20,693 bases of DNA from IMG/VR virus record IMGVR_UViG_3300042905_005731, positions 1 to 20,693 of that record, one strand, 5' to 3'. This DNA comes from a virus. Position 1 is the first letter of the stretch. The number at the start of each line of letters is the position of its first letter. Positions 1,034 to 19,983 of the stretch are shown piece by piece. The notes beneath the pieces are model-generated. The model made no database searches. It saw only the letters and a list, made by a program, of their open reading frames with translations, and was not told where the DNA came from. A program made the position numbers and the translations under genes.

Positions 1034-1816
1034 ATGACCGCCGAACTTCCACTCCCGCCCGGCCCCGCCACGCCGGCTTCACCCGTGCCCCCCGCCGCCG
1101 AGGCTACCGCCGAACAGATTGCCCGCTGGGAATCCCTCTACGACACGAAGCGGCGGCAGCTCTTTCGTTACCTCGCCACGGGCCGCGAGAAAGGCCGGCC
1201 GTGCCCGATGGATCATCCCGCACAAATGCCCGGCTGGTGGGCCGCGTGCATGAAGCAGCGAGTGCCCACGAAGATCCTCACCGCCGCACAGCACGCCGCC
1301 GCCCAGACCGGCACGCCCGCGAGCGAAGCGCCCGCGCCCGAGCCACCGCCACCCGCGCCCGCCGGCGAGCTGGCGCTCACCGAGGCCAGCTACGATTTCC
1401 CCGCCCAGGTCGAGCGCCTGCGCGGCGAGCAGCGCCGCATTCAGAGCCAGCTCGACAAAGCGCGCGCCGGAGCGGTCGTGGATGGCGTCCTCGTCGTGAA
1501 TCAAACCGACTGCGAAAGCCTCCTGCGCCAGTCGCTCTCCCTCACCGCCGAGCTGCGCAAAGCCGAGAACGATCTCACCTCCTGGCTCGTCACCCGCGGC
1601 GGGCTGTCCGACACGGCGACGGTCCGCAGCGAAAACGCCCGCATCGCCGGTGCGATCTACGGAGCCGTGCGCCGCCTCGTCCGCAGCGTCCGGCCCCTGC
1701 TCACCGGCAAAAGCGACGCCGAGCAGGACCGGCTCTGGGACGCTAAAACGCTCGAATGCTTTTCCGCGCTCAAGGCCGCGAAGTTCACCGTCCAGATCCC
1801 CGCGGAAACCCCATGA
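1034..1816 (+). CDS. Probable small terminase subunit (DNA packaging)
   Basis: The gene sits directly upstream of TerL and overlaps it by ATGA, the normal position of a small terminase subunit. This subunit recognises the packaging site and loads the large subunit. The 260-residue protein has a Pro/Ala-rich N-terminus, then a segment at about 28-75 (IARWESLYDTKRRQLFRYL ... MPGWWAACMKQR) that looks like a helix-turn-helix DNA-binding domain. A Pro/Ala linker (about 92-112) follows, then a long helical part (about 120-225, with AQVERLRGEQRRIQSQLDKA) that could mediate oligomerisation. DNA-binding plus coiled-coil is typical of small terminases. The family assignment rests on context and on this pattern, not on a confirmed domain match. 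It has no clear Shine-Dalgarno sequence. Confidence 0.65.
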   Translation: MTAELPLPPGPATPASPVPPAAEATAEQIARWESLYDTKRRQLFRYLATGREKGRPCPMDHPAQMPGWWAACMKQRVPTKILTAAQHAAAQTGTPASEAPAPEPPPPAPAGELALTEASYDFPAQVERLRGEQRRIQSQLDKARAGAVVDGVLVVNQTDCESLLRQSLSLTAELRKAENDLTSWLVTRGGLSDTATVRSENARIAGAIYGAVRRLVRSVRPLLTGKSDAEQDRLWDAKTLECFSALKAAKFTVQIPAETP

Positions 1817-3831
1817 GCGCCGTCGCCGAACTCCGCGAGTTCATCACCTCCACCTGGGCCGATGGCATCCGCGATCGAGCCGTGCAAAACGTCTGGGAAT
1901 TCGCCCGCGACAACATCGTCTTCACGCCGAAGATGGGCAACATCACCGGGCCTTACGACCCCGACCTCACGCCCTACACGAAGCTGTTCCAGGAGGCCAT
2001 CACCAGCGACTTCCGCAACATCCCCGAGGAGGATTGGTGGCTGCGCGGCCTCGCCGATAAAGGCCAGCGGTGCGACGAGGCCTTCGTCGTTAAAAGCTCC
2101 CAATCCGGCCTCACGCAAGGCGCGCTCAACGGCACCATCTACCTCCCCCTCCACGCCCCGGGCCGCCTGCTCTACGTCCTCGACAGCGTCCCGAAAGCCA
2201 AGAAGGTGGCGCTCACCCGCGTCATCCCTTTCCTCCGCGAGCTGTGCGGTGCCGTCATCGCCGACGAGGCCGATCTCAATGCGACCTTCATCGAGCTGAT
2301 GGACATGATCATGGAATTCGGAGGATCCTACTCGTCCGGTCTCTTCTCGGAAAAGCCGCTCAAATACGCCTTCGCCGACGATGTTGAATACATGGTCAGC
2401 CAGGGCGGCGCCGCCGGCATGCTCGATGGCGTCCACGTCATCGATCACCTCCGCTCCCGCTTCACCACCGCCGACGAATCCTTCCTCGGCGTCTTCTCCA
2501 AGCCCAACCTCGAAAGCTCCGAATTCATTGCAAACGCCCTCGCCGGCTCGCAGCATCGCTACTACGTCCGCTGCCCCCACTGCGGCACGCGGCAGATCCT
2601 CGAACCGGAGAATCTGAACTACGACCACAAAGGCTGCAAAGACCTCGCCGGCCGCTACGATCTCGACGCCGTCGAAGCCCTCACCACCTACCGCTGCGCC
2701 AGCGCCGCGCATTGCGAGATCGAGGAAAAGTGGAAGCACTCCATGAATCTCGCCGGCACATGGCTGCCCAAGTCCCGCGAGGCCCGCATCCGCGACGAAG
2801 ATCCTGCCCTCGTCCCGCGCCGGCTCTCCATGCAGATCAGCGATCTCTACTCCCCTTTCCCGAAGGTGAAGTGGGGCATGCTCGCCCGCATGAAGATCGC
2901 CGCGGAAAACAACCCCGCCGCCCTGAAGCATCTCACCACAAACCATTTTGCCCGCCCCTGGCGCGAGTCCGCTATCAGCCTTCGCGCCGACAACATCCGC
3001 GCGATCTGCGCCGGCGCGCTGAATCCGCTCACCGGCAAATGGTGGCCCGACGACTGCGACCACGAGGGCAAGCTCAAAGTGCCGGCCTACCGCCGCGGCG
3101 AGTGCCCCTTCCGCCCCGTCGCCGTCACCGCCACGTCCGACGTGCAGGGCGACAAGTTCAAATGGATCATCTGCGGATGGCAGATCGACGGCACCTGCGC
3201 CGTCATCGAATACGGAGCCTCCCTCGGCACCTTCGATCTCTACGAAAAAATGATCGACCCCCGCGCCCACGATGGCTCCCCGCTGCTCTCCCTCATCGAT
3301 CCCGACCGCCCGCTCATCGCCGAGCATGGCCTCGTCGATTCCGGCGCGTTCACCTCGGCGATTTATGACTTCTGCATTCGCACCGGCTGGGCCTGGTATC
3401 CGTCGAAAGGCACCGGCGGCATCGAACTCAACGGCCAGATGGTCGCCGGCCGCCCCGACTTTTACGAAGGCACGCCGATCCTCCGCTACCACTACCACGA
3501 TCACGCCCTCAAGACCCTGCTCTACAACGGCAAGATCGCCAAAGCGCACGACAGCAAGTGGCCGCAGCCCCGCCTGTACCTCCCCCACGATCTCACAGAC
3601 GACTTCATCCTCGAACTGCTCTCTGAATCCCTCCAGCCGAAGCGCACTTCCGGCCGGGCCGTGCGCATGGAATGGATCCACAACTCGCGCATCGGCCCGA
3701 ATGACTGGGGCGACGCGCTCAAAATGCAGTTCGCCCTCTGGCAAATCGTCGGCCCCCAATACCAAGGCGCCGCCGGACTCAACGTCCGCCACTACGAGCT
3801 AAAGCCCGCCCCATTGCCAATGAACGCATAA
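1813..3831 (+). CDS. terL: Phage terminase large subunit, GpA (lambda-type) family
   Basis: This is the packaging motor: an ATPase that drives DNA into the procapsid, with a C-terminal nuclease that cuts the concatemer. The protein has 672 residues, close to lambda gpA. A deviant Walker A motif KSSQSGLTQ starts at K94, with the lysine at the front as in lambda gpA. A zinc-binding set follows: C254-P-H-C257, C295 and C301 (YRCASAAHCEIEEKWK), as is usual in this family. TATSDVQGDKF around D443 matches the family's nuclease motif, and VDSGAFTSAIYDFC and NDWGDALKMQFALW are further family signatures. The start at 1813 overlaps the upstream stop by ATGA; an in-frame start at 1756 would intrude into the previous gene. 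Confidence 0.96.
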   Translation: MSAVAELREFITSTWADGIRDRAVQNVWEFARDNIVFTPKMGNITGPYDPDLTPYTKLFQEAITSDFRNIPEEDWWLRGLADKGQRCDEAFVVKSSQSGLTQGALNGTIYLPLHAPGRLLYVLDSVPKAKKVALTRVIPFLRELCGAVIADEADLNATFIELMDMIMEFGGSYSSGLFSEKPLKYAFADDVEYMVSQGGAAGMLDGVHVIDHLRSRFTTADESFLGVFSKPNLESSEFIANALAGSQHRYYVRCPHCGTRQILEPENLNYDHKGCKDLAGRYDLDAVEALTTYRCASAAHCEIEEKWKHSMNLAGTWLPKSREARIRDEDPALVPRRLSMQISDLYSPFPKVKWGMLARMKIAAENNPAALKHLTTNHFARPWRESAISLRADNIRAICAGALNPLTGKWWPDDCDHEGKLKVPAYRRGECPFRPVAVTATSDVQGDKFKWIICGWQIDGTCAVIEYGASLGTFDLYEKMIDPRAHDGSPLLSLIDPDRPLIAEHGLVDSGAFTSAIYDFCIRTGWAWYPSKGTGGIELNGQMVAGRPDFYEGTPILRYHYHDHALKTLLYNGKIAKAHDSKWPQPRLYLPHDLTDDFILELLSESLQPKRTSGRAVRMEWIHNSRIGPNDWGDALKMQFALWQIVGPQYQGAAGLNVRHYELKPAPLPMNA

Positions 3832-5186: not shown

Positions 5187-6712
5187 GCCGCCCGAAAAAG
5201 CGCAAAGTCGCCGCACCGAAAGCGGGCCAGCCTCTCGCGGCCAGCGGCGGCGGCGGGACATGGGGCAGCTTTTACGAGGCCACGGGCTACTCGACCTCGC
5301 GCGCCTACAAGCCCTTCTTCGCGACCGACAGCAAGCACACCCTCACCTCCTTCAACCGCCTGCGCGCCATGTCGCTCGCGCGCTGGGCCTACGTCAACAT
5401 TCCCGTGCTCAAGGCCGGCGTCGATCTCATGGCCCGCCTCACCGTGGGCACCGGCTTCGAGCCGCGCACACCCGGCCCGCTCGGAAAGCTCTACGACTCC
5501 TACTACCTCGCCCGCGCTCGCGCCATCGGCTTTATGGCGGGAGAAAGCATGGATGAGCTGCTCCTCCACGACTGCCGCGCCGTGGATGTCGATGGCGATC
5601 TCGGCTACGTCATGACCGAGGACGAAACCGGCGCGGCCAAGCTCCAGGTCATCGAAGGCCACCGCATCACCACGGGCGACACCACCGACGAGCGGTGCGT
5701 CGATGGCATATGGGTGGATGCCTTCGGGCGCAAGGCCGGATACAACGTCGCCCTCCCCGGTGGCAAAACCGTCCGCCTCGCCCCGCGCGATTTCCTCTAC
5801 CTGGCCGAGCGTAACCGCCCCGACGAGCTGCGCTCGATGACCAACTTCGTTCACGCGCTCGCCCCGCTGCAGGACCTTTACGAAATCCTCGGCTTCGCCA
5901 TGACTTCGGCGAAAAAGAACACCGAGATCGCCGCGATCATCGAAACGCAAACGCCCAACGATCTGCCGCTCGGTGCCCCGCGCGGCATGACCGTCCGCAG
6001 CGCCGTCGCCGCCAGTGGCGACCAACCCGCTGCGCCAGCCGTGCAAGTCACCTACGAGCAGGTCACCGGCGGCGGTGGCAAGATCCCCATCCTCCGCCCC
6101 GGCGAGACATTCAAGAGCTTCGCCCACGCCCAACCCTCCCCGACCATCGCCCAGTGGAGCGACTTTCACTTGCGCGGCATCTTCGCCGGCTACGGCCTGC
6201 CCTTCGAGATCGTCCTCAAGCCCGAGCTGCTCGGCGGTGCCGCCTACCGCGGCGTGCTCGCCATCCTCCGCCAGCGCCTGCAGCAGCGCCGCAACAACCT
6301 GGTGTTCCCCAAGCTCACCCGCAGCCGGTTCTGGATTCTTTCCCGAGGCATCAAACGCGGCGAAATCCCCTACGACCCGGCGCTCTTCCGCGTGGAGTGG
6401 CAGCCGAAGTTTGTGGACATCACCGTGGATGCCGGACGGGAATCCCGCGAGCGCCGCGCCAACGTCCTCGGCGGGCTCGACACCTTCACCAGCTACGACG
6501 CCGAGAACGGCAACGACTACCTCGGCACCACCCTCCCCGCCCGCGAGGCCGAGATGGCTGCGCAGTGCGAAGCAGCCAAGCGCCTCGCCGAGAAATATCC
6601 GGGACTCGGATTCTCCGCCGCCCTCGCCCGCATCGCCCTTCTCACCCAAGGCGCGAGCGAAGGCAACCTCGCCGCGGCTGCACCGGTGCAGCCGAATCCT
6701 TCTGACGCATGA
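5183..6712 (+). CDS. Phage portal protein, lambda family
   Basis: The portal forms the dodecameric ring at one capsid vertex through which DNA enters and to which the neck attaches. The 509-residue protein has the usual lambda-type length and order: a basic N-terminus, a conserved helical entry segment (LTSFNRLRAMSLARWAYVN), a variable middle region, a clip/stem part (FHLRGIFAGYGLPFEIVL) and a C-terminal wing. Its position between TerL and the S49 protease fits exactly. It starts at 5183 by ATGA overlap with the upstream gene and ends by ATGA overlap with the protease, so the head genes are translationally coupled. Confidence 0.92.
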   Translation: MSRPKKRKVAAPKAGQPLAASGGGGTWGSFYEATGYSTSRAYKPFFATDSKHTLTSFNRLRAMSLARWAYVNIPVLKAGVDLMARLTVGTGFEPRTPGPLGKLYDSYYLARARAIGFMAGESMDELLLHDCRAVDVDGDLGYVMTEDETGAAKLQVIEGHRITTGDTTDERCVDGIWVDAFGRKAGYNVALPGGKTVRLAPRDFLYLAERNRPDELRSMTNFVHALAPLQDLYEILGFAMTSAKKNTEIAAIIETQTPNDLPLGAPRGMTVRSAVAASGDQPAAPAVQVTYEQVTGGGGKIPILRPGETFKSFAHAQPSPTIAQWSDFHLRGIFAGYGLPFEIVLKPELLGGAAYRGVLAILRQRLQQRRNNLVFPKLTRSRFWILSRGIKRGEIPYDPALFRVEWQPKFVDITVDAGRESRERRANVLGGLDTFTSYDAENGNDYLGTTLPAREAEMAAQCEAAKRLAEKYPGLGFSAALARIALLTQGASEGNLAAAAPVQPNPSDA

Positions 6713-9032: not shown

Positions 9033-9118
9033 CTCCACCTTCAACGTCCGCTGCGCAAGGCTAGCTGCGCGGCGGCGGAGTTTCTCCGGGGCCTCCCAGT
9101 GGCCTCAAAAGAAAACCC

Positions 9119-9161: not shown

Positions 9162-11441
9162 ATGAATCCACAGAAAATCTCCCTCGCCATCATCACCGGC
9201 AACATCGGCGCGCCGATGATGAACCGCTTCCTCGATCACTTCTGGCAGGTCGCCGACGAGATCATCGTCGTCCGCGCCATCGGCAATGAGCCCCCGGATG
9301 CCAGCCTTGAAATCGCATTCGATCGTGGATGCGTCACCGCGGAATATCACAATCGCATTAAGACAATCGTGGCTGAATCAGGGCAGCACCATATTTGCGG
9401 CGATAGCCCCTCCAACTGGCCGCACGTCGATGACTTCGCCGCCGCCCGCAATCAGGCATGGGACCTCGCCACCGGCGACTGGATCATGTGGGCCGACACC
9501 GACGACATCATCACCCCGGAGGCCGCAGCCGCCATCCGCGCCGCGATCGAGGAAAAGGGCGAGCGCTTCGACATGTTGCAGACGCCCTACTGCGTACCAG
9601 ATGCCGGCCTGCTCGACAACCCGCGCGAGCGCGTGGTGCGCCGCGGCATCGCCCGCTGGGCGCAGCCCGTCCACGAATGCCTCGAACCCATCGACCCCGC
9701 TGCGAAGTGGCGCACCGCCACCTGCGCCGAGGGCCGCATCGTCCACGATCCCGGCCCGCGCCCGCCCGCCGCGCGCAACGGACGCAACCTCCGCATCCTC
9801 GAAAGCCTCCCGCCCGACCAGCTCACCACGTCCCTGCGCTACCATCTCTTTGCCGAGCTTTTCGCGATGGGGCGCAAAGCCGAGGGCGCGCTCGCCGCCG
9901 AGCAGTTCCTCCTGCTGAAAGACGCCGGCCCCGTCGAGCGCTTCGAGTGCGCGCTCTCGCTTTCCATGGTCGCCGAAGATCCCGCCGACAAGGCGCAGTG
10001 GCTACAGCTTGCCTTTCACGAGTGCCCCCACCGCCGCGAGCCCCTCGTGCTGCTTTCCAATCTCGCCCTCAACGCCGACGATCCCACCCGAGCCGAAGCC
10101 TACCTCCGCGCAGCCTCCGCCCTCCCGCTCCCGCAGCCCGCCCCGTGGAATCTCCGCCGCAAGATGTGGGGCTGGCAGTTCGTTCAAGAGCAGGCCCGCG
10201 TGCTGCGCACCCAGGGGAATTTCCCCAAAGCCGAAGCGCTCGAAACCAATCACTTCCGCCGGCACGGTGCCCGCATCTCCCTTCTCCACGCCACCCGCGG
10301 ACGCGCGCAGCAGGCCATCGAAACCCGCGCCCTCTGGCTTGAGCGCGCCGCCGATCCCGACGCCATCGAGCACATCTTCGGCCTCGATCCCGACGACCCG
10401 GAAGGCCCCGCCCTCGGCGGCTTCCGCCACATCATTCAGGACTCCCACGACGGCGGCCCCTGCGGTGCATGGAACATCGCCGCGACCGTCGCCGCCGGCG
10501 AAGTCTTCGTCCAGGTCTCCGACGACATGATCCCGCCGCAAGGCTGGGACCGCGCCATCCTCGCCGCCCTCGGCGACACCACCGTCCCCGCCGTCCTCCG
10601 CGTCTCCGACGGCCACCGCACCGACGGCCTCATCGTCCTCGCCATCGTCACCCGCGCCTGGTGGCGGCAGGAAGGTCACCTTTTCCACCCGGCCTTTTTC
10701 AGCATGTTCAGCGACAACTGGCTCACCGAGCGCGCCAAAAAAGCGGGCACGATCCTCGAAGCTCCGCACCTTATCTTCGAGCACCGGCACCCCGCTTTCA
10801 CCGGCGAGGCCTGGCACCCCACCACCGCAGCGAGCAACAGCCTCCTCCACTACGCGACCGGGGCGAAGATCCTCGCCCAGCTCCGCGCTGGCCGGGAGGC
10901 ATTCACCTGGCGCGACATCCCCGGCTGCGTCCTCGACCCTTCGCCCGCAAAGGTCCACGCTCGCATCATCGGCCAGTTGGAAGCGCCCGTCTGCGTCGAG
11001 GTCGGCGTCGCCAATGGCCGCGGGCTCGCCTGTATGGCAACGCTGGCCGAGTTCCGCGGGGGCCGCGCCGTTGGAATCGACACCTTTTTGGGGACTCCCG
11101 GTGAGTCCGAGGGCTACCCACCGGACATGATGGCTCGGAGCTTTGAAAACATCGCCCGCTGTTCCATCGACCATATCACCGGTCTGCGCTGCGCTTCCAG
11201 CCTCGAAGCTGTCCAGGATATTCCGGACGCCGCTTACGACTACGTCTTTCTCGACGCCGCCCACGACTACGAGAGCATCCGCGCCGACATTGCCGCATGG
11301 TGGCCCAAGATCAACCCCGGCGGATGGCTTGCCGGCCACGACTACACCGACGCCGAGAGCGTTCGCCGAGCCGTCGATGAAGCCTTCCCCCACGCCGAAA
11401 AGCTCGGCACCTGCTGGCTCGTCCAGAAGCCCCTCGCATGA
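9162..11441 (+). CDS. Fusion protein: two GT-A glycosyltransferase domains plus SAM methyltransferase
   Basis: The 759-residue protein has four parts. Residues 1 to about 220 look like a GT-2 glycosyltransferase of the SunS-like type (DFAAARNQAWDLATGDWIMW), with D112-T-D114-D115 as metal/sugar-nucleotide motif. About 230-370 is helical and TPR-like. About 380-580 is a second GT-A-like domain (AWNIAATVAAGEVFVQVSDD, D454-D455). About 600-755 is a class I methyltransferase (CVEVGVANGRG from C611; DYVFLDAAHDYESI; INPGGWLAGHDY). It could build and then O-methylate a glycan, likely on virion proteins given its place after the capsid gene. I start it at 9162; the longer in-frame ORF from 9099 would translate the terminator. 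No Shine-Dalgarno sequence is seen. Confidence 0.88.
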   Translation: MNPQKISLAIITGNIGAPMMNRFLDHFWQVADEIIVVRAIGNEPPDASLEIAFDRGCVTAEYHNRIKTIVAESGQHHICGDSPSNWPHVDDFAAARNQAWDLATGDWIMWADTDDIITPEAAAAIRAAIEEKGERFDMLQTPYCVPDAGLLDNPRERVVRRGIARWAQPVHECLEPIDPAAKWRTATCAEGRIVHDPGPRPPAARNGRNLRILESLPPDQLTTSLRYHLFAELFAMGRKAEGALAAEQFLLLKDAGPVERFECALSLSMVAEDPADKAQWLQLAFHECPHRREPLVLLSNLALNADDPTRAEAYLRAASALPLPQPAPWNLRRKMWGWQFVQEQARVLRTQGNFPKAEALETNHFRRHGARISLLHATRGRAQQAIETRALWLERAADPDAIEHIFGLDPDDPEGPALGGFRHIIQDSHDGGPCGAWNIAATVAAGEVFVQVSDDMIPPQGWDRAILAALGDTTVPAVLRVSDGHRTDGLIVLAIVTRAWWRQEGHLFHPAFFSMFSDNWLTERAKKAGTILEAPHLIFEHRHPAFTGEAWHPTTAASNSLLHYATGAKILAQLRAGREAFTWRDIPGCVLDPSPAKVHARIIGQLEAPVCVEVGVANGRGLACMATLAEFRGGRAVGIDTFLGTPGESEGYPPDMMARSFENIARCSIDHITGLRCASSLEAVQDIPDAAYDYVFLDAAHDYESIRADIAAWWPKINPGGWLAGHDYTDAESVRRAVDEAFPHAEKLGTCWLVQKPLA

Positions 11442-11563
11442 CCACTTTGCCCGCGGCACTCACCGCCCAGCCCCTGCCTCCGTCGTGGAATGCGGAACCC
11501 GGGGTCAACCGCCACCGCACTTCCGCGGCCGGTGCGGGCAATTCCTTTCCCATCCATCCATGA
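11438..11563 (+). CDS. 41-aa micro-ORF bridging two glycosyltransferase genes
   Basis: The ATG at 11438 overlaps the stop of the preceding gene (ATGA), and its own stop (11561-11563) overlaps the ATG of the next gene (ATGA). It encodes a Pro/Ala-rich peptide (MTTLPAALTAQPLPPSW and on) with no recognisable domain. The double coupling makes chance less likely. It may be a real small protein or simply a ribosome relay that couples translation across the gap. Confidence 0.45.
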   Translation: MTTLPAALTAQPLPPSWNAEPGVNRHRTSAAGAGNSFPIHP

Positions 11564-12123
11564 ATCCGCTCCTCTCCATCCTCATCCCATCCATCCCCGC
11601 CCGGCTCGATCAGCTCGGCGTCCTCTTCAACCGCCTTGGCCGCGATCCGTGCGTCGAGGTGCTGGCCTTCGCGGACAACCGCGCCCGCCCGGTCGGGGCA
11701 AAGCGGCAGGGCCTGCTCGACATCGCGCGCGGGGACTACGTCGCCTTCGTCGATGACGACGACTGGACCAGCGAGGACTATCTCGCCGAGCTGCTGCCCC
11801 GCTGCGCCAGCGGGCCGGACGTGGTCACCTTCGAGCAGATCGCCGTCATCAATGGCGTGGAGGGACGGATCATCTTCGACGCCGCCTGCCGCGTGGATGA
11901 GCCATGGCAGGCCGGAGGCACCGCCCGCCGTCGCCCCTGGCACGTCTGCGCGTGGCGCCGCGCTCTCGCGCAGCAGGGCATCTTCACCGAGGTCAACTAC
12001 GGAGAGGACCGCGCGTGGGTGGATCAGGTCGCGCCGCTCGCCCGCACCCACCTGCACATCCCCAAGGTGCTCCACCACTACCGCCACGACGCCGCGCTCA
12101 CCGCCGCGCCGGCCCCGCTTTGA
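11560..12123 (+). CDS. Compact GT-2 family glycosyltransferase, 187 aa
   Basis: The protein opens with the typical GT-A strand (LLSILIPSIPARLDQL) and has AKRQGLLDIARGDYVAFVD followed by D65-D68 and W69, the metal and sugar-nucleotide binding motif of GT-2 enzymes. Near the C-terminus GEDRAWVDQV supplies the usual acidic ED pair. At 187 residues it is a minimal GT-A domain with no membrane segment. The start at 11560 overlaps the micro-ORF stop; a longer ORF from 11143 would run inside the upstream methyltransferase. With its neighbour it forms a two-gene glycan cassette between capsid and neck genes. Substrate and acceptor cannot be read from sequence. Confidence 0.85.
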   Translation: MNPLLSILIPSIPARLDQLGVLFNRLGRDPCVEVLAFADNRARPVGAKRQGLLDIARGDYVAFVDDDDWTSEDYLAELLPRCASGPDVVTFEQIAVINGVEGRIIFDAACRVDEPWQAGGTARRRPWHVCAWRRALAQQGIFTEVNYGEDRAWVDQVAPLARTHLHIPKVLHHYRHDAALTAAPAPL

Positions 12124-12124
12124 C

Positions 12125-12295
12125 ATGCGCGGACCCTTGGGCGAGCCGGAGCATCATCCGTCGCTTGGGGCGCAAGCCCGTAGGTCAGCCAGCCACCCAC
12201 GCCCTCCGCTTTTTCATGGGGGTAACATAGGCGCGGCGCCGGGGTTTTTGGGAACTTTCCCCGGCGTCGCTGCCCCTTTGACACCCCAGCCCTGA
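12125..12295 (+). CDS. Doubtful 56-aa ORF in the gap after the glycosyltransferase
   Basis: The ATG is two bases after the preceding stop (TGACATG) and the stop is one base before the next ATG (TGACATG again), so it fills the 12124-12296 gap exactly. However, the peptide (MRGPLGEPEHHPSLGAQ and on) looks like translated non-coding DNA, and the gap contains two inverted repeats. I list it because of its position and keep the confidence low. Confidence 0.22.
   Translation: MRGPLGEPEHHPSLGAQARRSASHPRPPLFHGGNIGAAPGFLGTFPGVAAPLTPQP
12237..12266. other. Inverted repeat downstream of the glycosyltransferase cassette
   Basis: CGCCGGGG (12237-12244) pairs perfectly with CCCCGGCG (12259-12266), with a 14-base loop. 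A smaller hairpin, GCTTG/CAAGC, lies near 12160. No T-run follows on the + strand, so this is at best a weak terminator or a transcript-stabilising hairpin. Confidence 0.5.
12277..12285 (+). promoter_or_regulatory. TTTGACACC leader motif, copy 4
   Basis: The first T is exactly 20 bases before the ATG at 12297, at the restart of structural genes after the glycosyltransferase cassette. A related TTTGACATG overlaps the glycosyltransferase stop at 12121. Confidence 0.5.
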
Positions 12296-12296
12296 C

Positions 12297-12497
12297 ATGA
12301 CCGCCGCCACGCTGCCCCTCACCGTCCTGTTCGGGCTGGCGGAAAGCGCCGAAGCCCACGCCCGCGCCCTCCGGCAGGCCATCCACATCGCGCAGGAGGC
12401 CTGCCCCCACGCCGAGACCGATCCCGTCCACCCCGCCGACGCCGAAGACGCCCCGCGCCGCTGCTGCCGGGCCTGCCGCAAGGTCCTACCAGCATGA
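12297..12497 (+). CDS. Small Cys-rich hypothetical protein, 66 aa
   Basis: I do not recognise this protein. Its N-terminal half is a hydrophobic to amphipathic helix (LPLTVLFGLAESAEAHARAL). The C-terminal half holds ACPHAE and RRCCRACRK, a possible zinc-binding C-x-H / C-C-x2-C set. It overlaps the next gene by ATGA, so it belongs to the neck and tail transcription unit. A structural or assembly-factor role is only a guess from position. Confidence 0.6.
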   Translation: MTAATLPLTVLFGLAESAEAHARALRQAIHIAQEACPHAETDPVHPADAEDAPRRCCRACRKVLPA

Positions 12498-12832
12498 GCC
12501 AGTCCGCCACCCTTCTCGCCCGTGGCCAGGCATTCCTGGCCACCGAGTTTCCCGCCACGATCAAGATCGGCGCGCAGAGCTACGCCGCCGCCACCAGCGG
12601 CATGCGCAGCGGCATGGAGCTGTCCGAGTTCGGCGCGGTCGCCCAGCGCACCATCGCTTTCTGGCTCCCCGCCTCCGCCTTCACGGATGCCGGACAGCCC
12701 GCACCCGCCGCCGGTGCCGCCGTGGAATGCACCGCCCCGGCCGCCCTCGCCGGCAGCTACACCCTCGACGCCCCGGTCATCGATCCCACCGGCACCACCC
12801 TCACCCTGCGCTGCACCGCGCCCGCCCAATGA
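12494..12832 (+). CDS. Probable head-tail joining protein, 112 aa
   Basis: The gene lies between the capsid/glycosyltransferase block and the tail genes, coupled by ATGA at both ends. The protein is small, beta-rich and Gly/Ala-rich, with a short N-terminal helix (ATLLARGQAFLATEF) and alternating strands (TIKIGAQSYAAATSG; TLTLRCTAPAQ). Small beta proteins in this slot in lambda-like phages (FII-type) join head and tail. I see no diagnostic motif, so the role is inferred from position and size. Confidence 0.6.
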   Translation: MSQSATLLARGQAFLATEFPATIKIGAQSYAAATSGMRSGMELSEFGAVAQRTIAFWLPASAFTDAGQPAPAAGAAVECTAPAALAGSYTLDAPVIDPTGTTLTLRCTAPAQ

Positions 12833-13269
12833 GCGACCGCCCGCAAGACCGCCTGCTCGCCGAGGCCTTCCGCCTCATCCTCGCCCGCGAGCTTCCCGCC
12901 GGCACGAATCTCCGCACCCTGCACGAAGACACGCCCGAGGACGGTGCCCCGCGCCCGCTCCCGATGATCGGCATCGCCGCCAGCCGCTCCGGGGAAGACT
13001 ACGCGCTCACCGACTCCACCCGAAAGCCCAGCGACCTCATGGAGATCCGCTTCGAGTGCCGCCTGGATGCCGACCAGCCCGGCAGCGCGCAGGCCGCCGA
13101 AACCCTCGCCGGGCAGGTCAGGACCGCCATCGCCACCGCCACCGCCGGGGATTTCACCGGATGGGACGTGGTGGACAACTTCGAGTGGACGGGCAACGAG
13201 CGCAGCTTCGACCAAGGCGCGCGGGTCGTCACCCTCCTCGCCACCTGCTTCGTTCTCCGCACGGTTTGA
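12829..13269 (+). CDS. Probable tail terminator/completion protein, 146 aa
   Basis: The start at 12829 overlaps the previous stop by ATGA; the longer in-frame ORF from 12727 is rejected. The protein begins with a helix (RLLAEAFRLILARELPAG), then strands (MIGIAASRSG; LMEIRFECRLDA), a central helix (AETLAGQVRTAIATATAG) and C-terminal strands (RVVTLLATCFVLRTV). This alpha/beta layout and length resemble tail terminators such as lambda gpU, which cap the tail tube and bind the neck. The position before the tube candidate agrees. The call is inference. Confidence 0.6.
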   Translation: MSDRPQDRLLAEAFRLILARELPAGTNLRTLHEDTPEDGAPRPLPMIGIAASRSGEDYALTDSTRKPSDLMEIRFECRLDADQPGSAQAAETLAGQVRTAIATATAGDFTGWDVVDNFEWTGNERSFDQGARVVTLLATCFVLRTV

Positions 13270-18441: not shown

Positions 18442-19983
18442 GTGAAGCACCACCTCAACCGCCAGCGCCAGCGCAACGTCATCGGCCTGAATAACCCCGC
18501 CGACGTGACCCTCCGCGAGGTCAAGCGCGGAGACAACTCCACCTTCGAGGTGATCGTCTGCGACGACTTCGGCGTCGCGGTCGAGCTGGATGCCACCCTC
18601 ACCCTCACCGACTTCCGCTTCACGGCCAAAGTGGTGGGCGCGCTCGGTGCGGAAAGCGCCATCGTCAGCGCCACGAGCTACACCAAGACCGGCACGGGCA
18701 GCGCCACCGTCTATACACTCGCCCCGGCATTCACCGGCACCGCCCTCGGCGATCTCTTCCCCACCGGCGGCACCCAGCGCACGCCCGCCGATGCCACCGC
18801 CCGGCTCGCCCTCACCGGCCTGCTCGTCAACGCCGTGGTGCGCCAGGTGGACTCGGGCGAATACTGGATGCTCACCAATGCCGCCGCGCCCTCCAGCGCC
18901 GCGAGCTGGACGCTGGAGGAGGCCCGCGAGAACTACGTGGACCTCGCCGGTGAGTTCGAATACGTCCTCGATGGCAAGCAATTCAGCTACCCCACCTTCA
19001 CCCTCCGCGTGTGGGACGATGTGAGCAAAGGCAACGAGACCACCTCCGGCGCGTTGCCCGTGTCCAACGCCTTCGTGGGACTCGCCCTCACCGCCTTCAC
19101 CGGCGGCGGCAGCACGGCTCTCGACGGCCTCGACATCACCGGCTTCCCCGTGGGCTCGATCGTGCAGATGGTCGCGAGCAGCGAGGGCGCGCTGAGCTCC
19201 TGGCAGCTCACCGCCCCGGCTGCGATCACCGCCAATACCGTCGCCAACCCCACCGTCGTCACCAGCGCCGCGCACGGACTCCCGGCGGGCACCACGGACA
19301 TCGTCATTGGCGGCAGCAACAGCACACCCACGATCGACGGCGCGCGCACCGCCACCTACATCGGCGCGAACACCTTCTCCGTGCCGGTCAACGTCACCGT
19401 CGCCGGCACCAGCGGCTACTGGGGCCCCGCCGAAAACGCCGCCGCCGGAATCGTCCGCCCGGACACCAACTACCTCGGACGCTACTGGACCCGCATCTCG
19501 CCGACCAGCGGCCGCGCATCCCTGTCCGGCAACGTCACGCGCACCAGCGACGCCACGCTGACAAACACCGGACTTTCCGCACTCGATGTGCCAGTGGTGG
19601 CGGGCGAGCGGTATCGGATCGAATACACCGTGCAGTGGAGCATCGCCGGGGTGACCAGCGGCGCGCAGTTCGGCCTCGAATACCCGGCTCACACAGCCGC
19701 CGCATGTCAGATTGAAGGACTGGTGTTTGAAGGTGGCGCGCCCCTAGCCTATGACACCTTAACAGGAGCCGCGTTTGCGGATGCCTACAACAACAGCGGA
19801 AGCGGCGCGCCGTTGGTCCAAGTAACAACGTCTGCCGCCGACGATTTCGGCAACGTCACATTGGTCTTCGACATCATTCCATCGGCATCCGGCACGGTGA
19901 AGCTGCTCGCCGGGCAGTACGCTTCTTCTGGCAACGTGCTGACCATCTACCGCATGACCTCCGTGAACTGGGTGAAATTCTAG
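18442..19983 (+). CDS. Tail fibre/baseplate-like protein with FCCH-like beta domain, 513 aa
   Basis: The GTG at 18442 is supported by the leader motif 20 bases upstream. The N-terminal region (DVTLREVKRGDNSTFEVIV) and the following strands look like an attachment domain to the tail. Residues about 265-320 (VVTSAAHGLPAGTTDIVIG ... ANTFSVPV) match the pattern of the small FCCH-like beta domain often seen in phage tail proteins. The last 170 residues look like a carbohydrate-binding jelly roll (YRIEYTVQWSIAG; NVTLVFDIIPSASGTVKLL). A receptor-binding or adsorption role is likely by domain style and position near the end of the tail genes; it is not proven. Base composition falls slightly after about 19690. 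Confidence 0.7.
   Translation: MKHHLNRQRQRNVIGLNNPADVTLREVKRGDNSTFEVIVCDDFGVAVELDATLTLTDFRFTAKVVGALGAESAIVSATSYTKTGTGSATVYTLAPAFTGTALGDLFPTGGTQRTPADATARLALTGLLVNAVVRQVDSGEYWMLTNAAAPSSAASWTLEEARENYVDLAGEFEYVLDGKQFSYPTFTLRVWDDVSKGNETTSGALPVSNAFVGLALTAFTGGGSTALDGLDITGFPVGSIVQMVASSEGALSSWQLTAPAAITANTVANPTVVTSAAHGLPAGTTDIVIGGSNSTPTIDGARTATYIGANTFSVPVNVTVAGTSGYWGPAENAAAGIVRPDTNYLGRYWTRISPTSGRASLSGNVTRTSDATLTNTGLSALDVPVVAGERYRIEYTVQWSIAGVTSGAQFGLEYPAHTAAACQIEGLVFEGGAPLAYDTLTGAAFADAYNNSGSGAPLVQVTTSAADDFGNVTLVFDIIPSASGTVKLLAGQYASSGNVLTIYRMTSVNWVKF

Follow-up and report, generated by a model that had tools for sequence, protein, structure and literature searches.

A capsid-linked glycosyltransferase–methyltransferase cassette in uncultured tailed phages, predicted to glycosylate the virion

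The window analysed here is the whole IMG/VR virus record IMGVR_UViG_3300042905_005731 (20,693 bases), which carries a two-gene cassette directly behind the major head protein gene: a gene fusing two glycosyltransferase (GT) domains, a tetratricopeptide repeat (TPR) region and a methyltransferase, hereafter the fusion, followed by a stand-alone third GT (Table 1). We posit that the cassette serves virion glycosylation, most probably of the major capsid protein, adding up to three sugars and an optional methyl cap, and we assign this reading a probability of about 0.72. A sequence-only reading of the same DNA had proposed a compact virion-decoration system that could both add sugars and methylate them. 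This is supported by linkage to the capsid gene, the protein-GT-like character of domain 1 with its TPR region, a sugar O-methyltransferase-like domain 3 and purifying selection, with the revision that the methyltransferase is an optional module.

Capsid-gene linkage and the phage group

A search for close relatives of the fusion recovered 66 viral loci and a profile search 561 viral stretches encoding relatives (80 of which were kept), ruling out an artefact of one contig. Among 68 fusion proteins, non-redundant at 95%, on which the locus counts are based, a homologous major capsid gene lies directly upstream in 67, and the third GT follows downstream in 57 of the 59 loci where this could be tested. 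As these loci were found via the fusion protein, the reverse search from the capsid protein matters: of the 71 loci that continued for 600 bases or more behind the capsid gene, 69 had domain 1, and all 39 that continued for 3,500 or more had domains 1 and 2, 38 of them also the third GT. That search covered capsid proteins of 50% or higher identity to its query, and several of its loci lay on contigs already present in the fusion search, which limits the linkage claim to this clade. A related GT-GT protein also occurs behind a capsid of a different family, phrog_1005, in two loci (L068 and L069); both are phage-like contigs binned into metagenome-assembled genomes of Thermoleophilia and Betaproteobacteria, and are either misbinned or derived from different hosts.

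The enzymes may instead modify another virion protein such as a tail tube, neck or decoration protein, the capsid gene being a mere neighbour. This would suit the position of the cassette at the capsid/neck boundary and the finding that both capsid and tail tube of mycobacteriophages are glycosylated (PMC12363180), but we judge it unlikely, though not negligible, given that the cassette sits at the same place behind two different capsid families.

The only cultured phage found with a similar capsid protein, at 25% identity, is Verrucomicrobia phage P8625, which has relatives of the terminase, portal, protease, capsid and tape-measure proteins of the group in the same order. Stand-alone domain 2 homologues occur in Verrucomicrobiota genomes (L070–L077), mostly of ~240–315 amino acids with longer frames in L072 and L076, and some lie near other glycosyltransferase-like genes. 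This kinship, together with the domain 2 relatives, suggests that the host is likely a member of the Verrucomicrobiota. The actinobacteriophage setting invoked by the sequence-only reading did not hold up, as the cultured phage with a similar capsid infects a verrucomicrobium and shares the gene order, and no full-length actinophage match was found, matches to Streptomyces phages reaching 24% coverage and 28% identity.

Domains, active sites and proposed mechanism

The fusion open reading frame (ORF) runs from an ATG at 9162 to a stop at 11441 and encodes 759 amino acids. An in-frame GTG at 9099 would extend it to 780 and is disfavoured, as homologues in the alignment begin at the residue corresponding to the ATG. 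The motifs D112-T-D114-D115, D454-D455 and C611-V-E-V-G fall exactly where the sequence-only reading had placed them, and its three catalytic domains were confirmed by an AlphaFold2 model based on 27 sequences (mean predicted local distance difference test score, pLDDT, 88.5; predicted template modelling score, pTM, 0.80). The model shows a GT-A domain (~1–205), paired helices (208–367), a second GT-A domain (~370–575) and a class I methyltransferase (~595–757); the helical linker described earlier proves to be a TPR-like repeat, with profile matches to consensus TPR proteins. Profile searches likewise matched all three catalytic domains. Pfam detected Glycos_transf_2 (E 1.6e-10) and Methyltransf_24 (E 8.6e-17), both over their cut-offs, while PHROGs assigned phrog_13126 to residues 90–316, the glycosyltransferase phrog_14945 to 370–557 and the methyltransferase phrog_2675 to 600–742. 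Domain 2 is detected weakly by PF00535, consistently in 14 of 14 related records.

Every member of the fusion alignment (27 members, 37–94% identical to the window protein) retains the presumed catalytic residues unchanged, and so does every aligned third GT. All three GTs combine a GT-A fold with the first aspartate and DxD-type motif characteristic of GT2 enzymes (D46/DTDD, D409/SDD and D39/DDDD); within the DTD of domain 1 the second aspartate is constant and the middle residue variable. The compact GT-2 enzyme described earlier behind the fusion is the 187-amino-acid third GT, the model of which (pLDDT 93.5) returned GT-A enzymes as structure matches. In the fusion, dN is well below dS in every domain, indicating purifying selection. 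That the cassette consists of hitch-hiking accessory genes with no role for the phage, as its absence from P8625 might suggest, is hardly credible in the face of this selection, the catalytic motifs conserved across the 27 aligned members and the near-universal presence of the cassette in the clade.

Domain 1 is most similar to protein glycosyltransferases. The family profile matched GmaR over nearly its whole GT domain (the solved chain; E 4.5e-21), SunS (E 8.8e-14) and ThuS (7msk; E 7e-11), and Foldseek searches with the fusion model ranked ThuS and SunS first (E 2.7e-12), with chondroitin polymerase and heparosan synthase, both two-domain GT enzymes, among the further matches. As in GmaR and SunS, the GT-A domain, homologous to that of GmaR, is followed by a TPR/helical region. 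Domain 3 scores 62.4 bits against Methyltransf_24 (curated cut-off 26.3), has an invariant S-adenosylmethionine (SAM)-binding motif, E613xG615xxxG619, and matches the class I fold; the family profile, too, hit methyltransferases over this part of the protein. Its fold resembles sugar O-methyltransferases most closely, with MeT1 the best Foldseek match (E 4.2e-9) and MycF also found (E 2.7e-6), and we predict this activity from that similarity.

These properties bear on two further alternatives. Glycosyltransferases by which phages convert the serotype of their host are well known, and the cassette could alter a host surface polysaccharide, leading to serotype conversion or superinfection exclusion. 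The stand-alone domain 2 homologues of Verrucomicrobiota genomes, some beside other glycosyltransferase-like genes, agree with such a role, which nevertheless seems quite unlikely to us: linkage to the capsid gene is strict where an accessory position would be expected, and domain 1 is nearest to protein glycosyltransferases. Nor does the cassette resemble a Gtr-type serotype-conversion system, which combines a membrane glycosyltransferase with a flippase and a lipid-carrier GT, as hydropathy indicates no membrane segment in either protein and PF00535 gives exactly three matches in each of 14 long records (27–38 kb), two in a fusion-length and one in a third-GT-length frame; no search was made for a flippase encoded elsewhere in the genome. 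The nucleotide-sugar pyrophosphorylase family PF00483 was not found in these 14 records, which may be incomplete. Modification of nucleic acid, with sugars and methyl groups placed on the DNA or RNA of the phage, is very improbable. It draws on the PHROG name 'DNA methyltransferase' for phrog_2675 and on TrmR among the structural matches, whereas domain 1 matches protein glycosyltransferases and the T4 DNA glucosyltransferases have a GT-B fold as opposed to the GT2/GT-A domains here. The PHROG name was not adopted, as DNA-methyltransferase motifs (DPPY/NPPY, PCQ/PCN, ENV) are absent from the cassette proteins.

Under virion glycosylation, domain 1 and the TPR region would bind a protein of the virion, the likeliest being the major capsid protein whose gene lies immediately upstream, and domain 1 would transfer an initial sugar to one of its side chains in the cytoplasm, in the manner of GmaR on flagellin or SunS and ThuS on peptides. 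The chain could then be lengthened or branched to up to three sugars by domain 2 and the third GT, presumably from host nucleotide-sugars, before the methyltransferase caps a sugar hydroxyl with a methyl group, giving a proposed order of priming, extension and capping. Exchange or loss of the cap would alter the exposed glycan end and could affect virion recognition or adsorption.

Several observations weigh against this reading. No member of the family has a known glycan, mass or enzyme activity, and the gene order also fits another virion protein as acceptor. P8625, the closest cultured relative found, has no GT between its capsid and neck-region genes, the capsid gene being followed by small genes none of which is annotated as a glycosyltransferase; the function is therefore dispensable for this general body plan. 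The methyltransferase domain also matches O-methyltransferases acting on other substrates (COMT and TrmR, by Foldseek), and identity to solved structures is ~14–17%, so that donor and acceptor are not readable from the sequence.

Table 1. Coordinates of the cassette and associated features in the 20,693-base window.
Feature	Start	End	Strand	Evidence
Major capsid (head) protein gene, presumed glycan acceptor	8130	9032	+	phrog_283 E 3.6e-14; phrog_267 E 6.6e-9
Terminator-like hairpin in the capsid-cassette gap	9119	9150		13-bp stem, 6-nt loop
Fused GT–TPR–GT–methyltransferase gene, 759 amino acids	9162	11441	+	Profiles, alignment, AlphaFold2 model, Foldseek
Domain 1, GT-A glycosyltransferase, protein-glycosyltransferase-like	9162	9776	+	D46, D112xD114D115, H171E172 invariant; GmaR/SunS/ThuS matches
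TPR-like helical repeat, proposed acceptor-binding region	9777	10265	+	Profile matches to consensus TPR proteins; helices 208–367 in model
Domain 2, second GT-A glycosyltransferase	10269	10886	+	D409, D412, S453D454D455, D518N519, H541/H543 invariant; phrog_14945 E 1.2e-12
Block exchanged in near-identical phage L005	10838	11428	+	Unrelated within the block; DNA identity 95.5% to its left (to 10837) and 97.4% to its right (from 11429)
Domain 3, class I SAM methyltransferase, sugar O-methyltransferase-like	10944	11432	+	E613xG615, D640, D698..HD702, GHD727 invariant
Third glycosyltransferase, stand-alone GT2, 187 amino acids	11560	12123	+	phrog_14775 E 2.4e-30; GT-A fold; D39N40, D65–D68, E149D150 invariant
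Inverted repeat after cassette	12237	12266		8-bp arms 12237–12244 / 12259–12266, 14-nt loop, no T-run; read from sequence

The methyltransferase as an exchangeable module

The methyltransferase is a swappable module with a history of many losses or replacements, one of them a clean exchange seen in two near-identical phages. Methyltransf_24 forms the C-terminus of 52 of the 68 fusion proteins, while 12 stop after domain 2, two carry FkbM (L042 and L057), one is Methyltransf_23-like below the cut-off (L045) and one ends in a domain of no assigned kind (L005). The forms lacking a methyltransferase are not truncated assemblies, as their genes end well inside contigs, and in most cases the third GT and then more structural genes lie behind them. 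A quick GT-GT tree, which has some long branches, requires at least 13 changes among the C-terminal states, and branches with good support make 11 gains or losses of the Methyltransf_24 label unavoidable.

The clean exchange separates the window from L005, in which 1.2 kb of replacement DNA encodes the C-terminal domain of L005 and a separate methyltransferase-like gene (6071–6670; Methyltransf_24 E 6e-5, just under the cut-off). The replacement domain (L005:5499–6074, ~190 amino acids) matches no Pfam or PHROG family credibly, and the search for its viral relatives recovered none besides itself; its 'AEWD' motif may point to another, third GT-A domain. Exchange is also apparent between L003 and the window, which are identical in every compared codon of the methyltransferase part and differ at 26% of synonymous sites in domain 1, and between L092 and L011, which share 93% in the methyltransferase and 61% in the GT-GT part. 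In L069 the GT-GT protein and the methyltransferase are encoded by separate adjacent genes; this locus has a further GT2 gene at 12216–12998. Given such loss, replacement and exchange, the core of the system is the GT-GT protein with the third GT, the methyl cap being optional and exchangeable. The third-GT slot is exchangeable too, as L187 carries a different GT2 enzyme there (L187:7871–8662; PF00535 E 8e-7).

Parallels with known systems and genomic setting

The closest parallel in layout is A064R of the chlorovirus PBCV-1, a 638-amino-acid protein which, according to PMC9614988, is a proven GT-GT-methyltransferase enzyme of the capsid glycan. The same source reports a natural variant with a truncated third domain that loses the methyl group of the glycan. 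A064R and the window fusion both place two GT domains and a C-terminal methyltransferase, in that order, on one soluble viral polypeptide; the substrate of A064R is the glycan carried by the major capsid protein, and variants with a truncated methyltransferase exist. In contrast, domain 1 of A064R is GT34-like and extends an existing N-glycan, the virus infects eukaryotic algae, and no TPR region is described for the enzyme. No PBCV-1 chain was present among the best 60 of 73 PDB profile matches or the top 50 structure matches, and M1IF74, a 638-amino-acid viral protein, is a weak fold match. The fusion is an analogue of A064R in layout, without detected homology, and its first domain is related to GmaR and SunS.

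GmaR of Listeria transfers N-acetylglucosamine to flagellin, and its TPR domain has been proposed to bind the protein acceptor (PMC9638930). It shares with the fusion a GT-A domain of ~190 residues followed by TPR, and its acceptor is a self-assembling surface protein, but its C-terminal part is an antirepressor where the fusion has a second GT and a methyltransferase. The glycocin S-glycosyltransferases SunS and ThuS, the best structural matches of the model, also combine GT-A with a helical region and use peptide acceptors; they differ in having a single GT domain and are ~14–17% identical to the fusion. The acceptor of SunS and ThuS is a bacteriocin. MeT1 and MycF, the sugar-acting enzymes among the structures nearest the methyltransferase domain, are by contrast stand-alone enzymes of mannoside or macrolide pathways with ~12–16% identity, MeT1 methylating a mannoside hydroxyl (PMC9883506). 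Among phages, Che8 gp110 and Corndog gp38 are glycosyltransferases needed for capsid glycosylation, the tail tube being glycosylated too (PMC12363180). The likeness lies in phage-encoded glycosyltransferases for the capsid, a role that is predicted in the window phage; the difference lies in the mycobacterial hosts of Che8 and Corndog and in a fused methyltransferase, which the text consulted in PMC12363180 does not report. The Che8 glycosyltransferase Q855A2 gave a weak, partial fold match to the fusion (template modelling scores 0.18/0.32).

Capsid glycosylation has so far been described for a few mycobacteriophages and the giant algal viruses. Here a predicted glycosylation cassette is near-universal in a large uncultured phage group and tied to the capsid gene, with the layout of the best-studied case from a eukaryotic virus; its broad conservation, convergence with A064R and module exchange are the surprising aspects. 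We tentatively suggest, at just short of even odds, that throughout this tailed-phage lineage a trifunctional enzyme gives the capsid a protein-linked coat of up to three sugars with a methyl cap, and that methyltransferase exchange switches the outer end of the coat, a serotype-like phage switch and a case of convergence with chlorovirus A064R. The natural forms with a methyltransferase, without one or with other domains make the role of the methyl cap directly testable. The GmaR-like domain 1 suggests a route to capsid priming by the phage itself that would need no lipid carriers, and such an enzyme could serve as a tool for cytoplasmic protein glycosylation.

Relative to shuffled sequence, the capsid-cassette gap forms unusually stable structure in most of the group (z < -2 in 57 of 60 non-redundant members, median z -3.5), and a T-run follows the stem in several members (L044, L061, L107). 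No sigma-70-like promoter was found between 7900 and 12600 of the window. Of the earlier proposal that a terminator and an inverted repeat bound the cassette, the two structures themselves stand, the second lacking a T-run, and the hairpin as a unit boundary does not: its position behind the capsid gene and ahead of the cassette makes a check on read-through from the capsid transcript the likelier role. The simplest reading is that it acts as a capsid-gene terminator with limited read-through, which would yield much capsid protein and little enzyme. The same gap holds a short ORF in L016 (2913–3281), GIY-YIG homing endonuclease-like by eye, and two extra ORFs in L046 (6366–7575).

The window appears to cover the structural-gene half of a tailed-phage genome, with Pfam and PHROG matches to a GpA-type terminase, lambda-type portal, S49 head protease and major head protein. 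A 26.7-kb record (L002) includes a part near-identical to it, with genes matching at 100%. The sequence-only reading had placed the cassette between capsid and neck genes; the capsid assignment agrees with the profile matches, and a neck gene is suggested by synteny only, the downstream ORF (12494–12832) having no Pfam or PHROG family match. A 513-amino-acid tail-region protein (18442–19983) shows a weak Ig-like match (E 0.0012, under the cut-off) and may be a virion surface protein. Antisense to the terminase lies a 711-amino-acid open frame (1657–3792, minus strand), and this and other long antisense frames, which are expected from the high GC content at third codon positions, are probably not genes.

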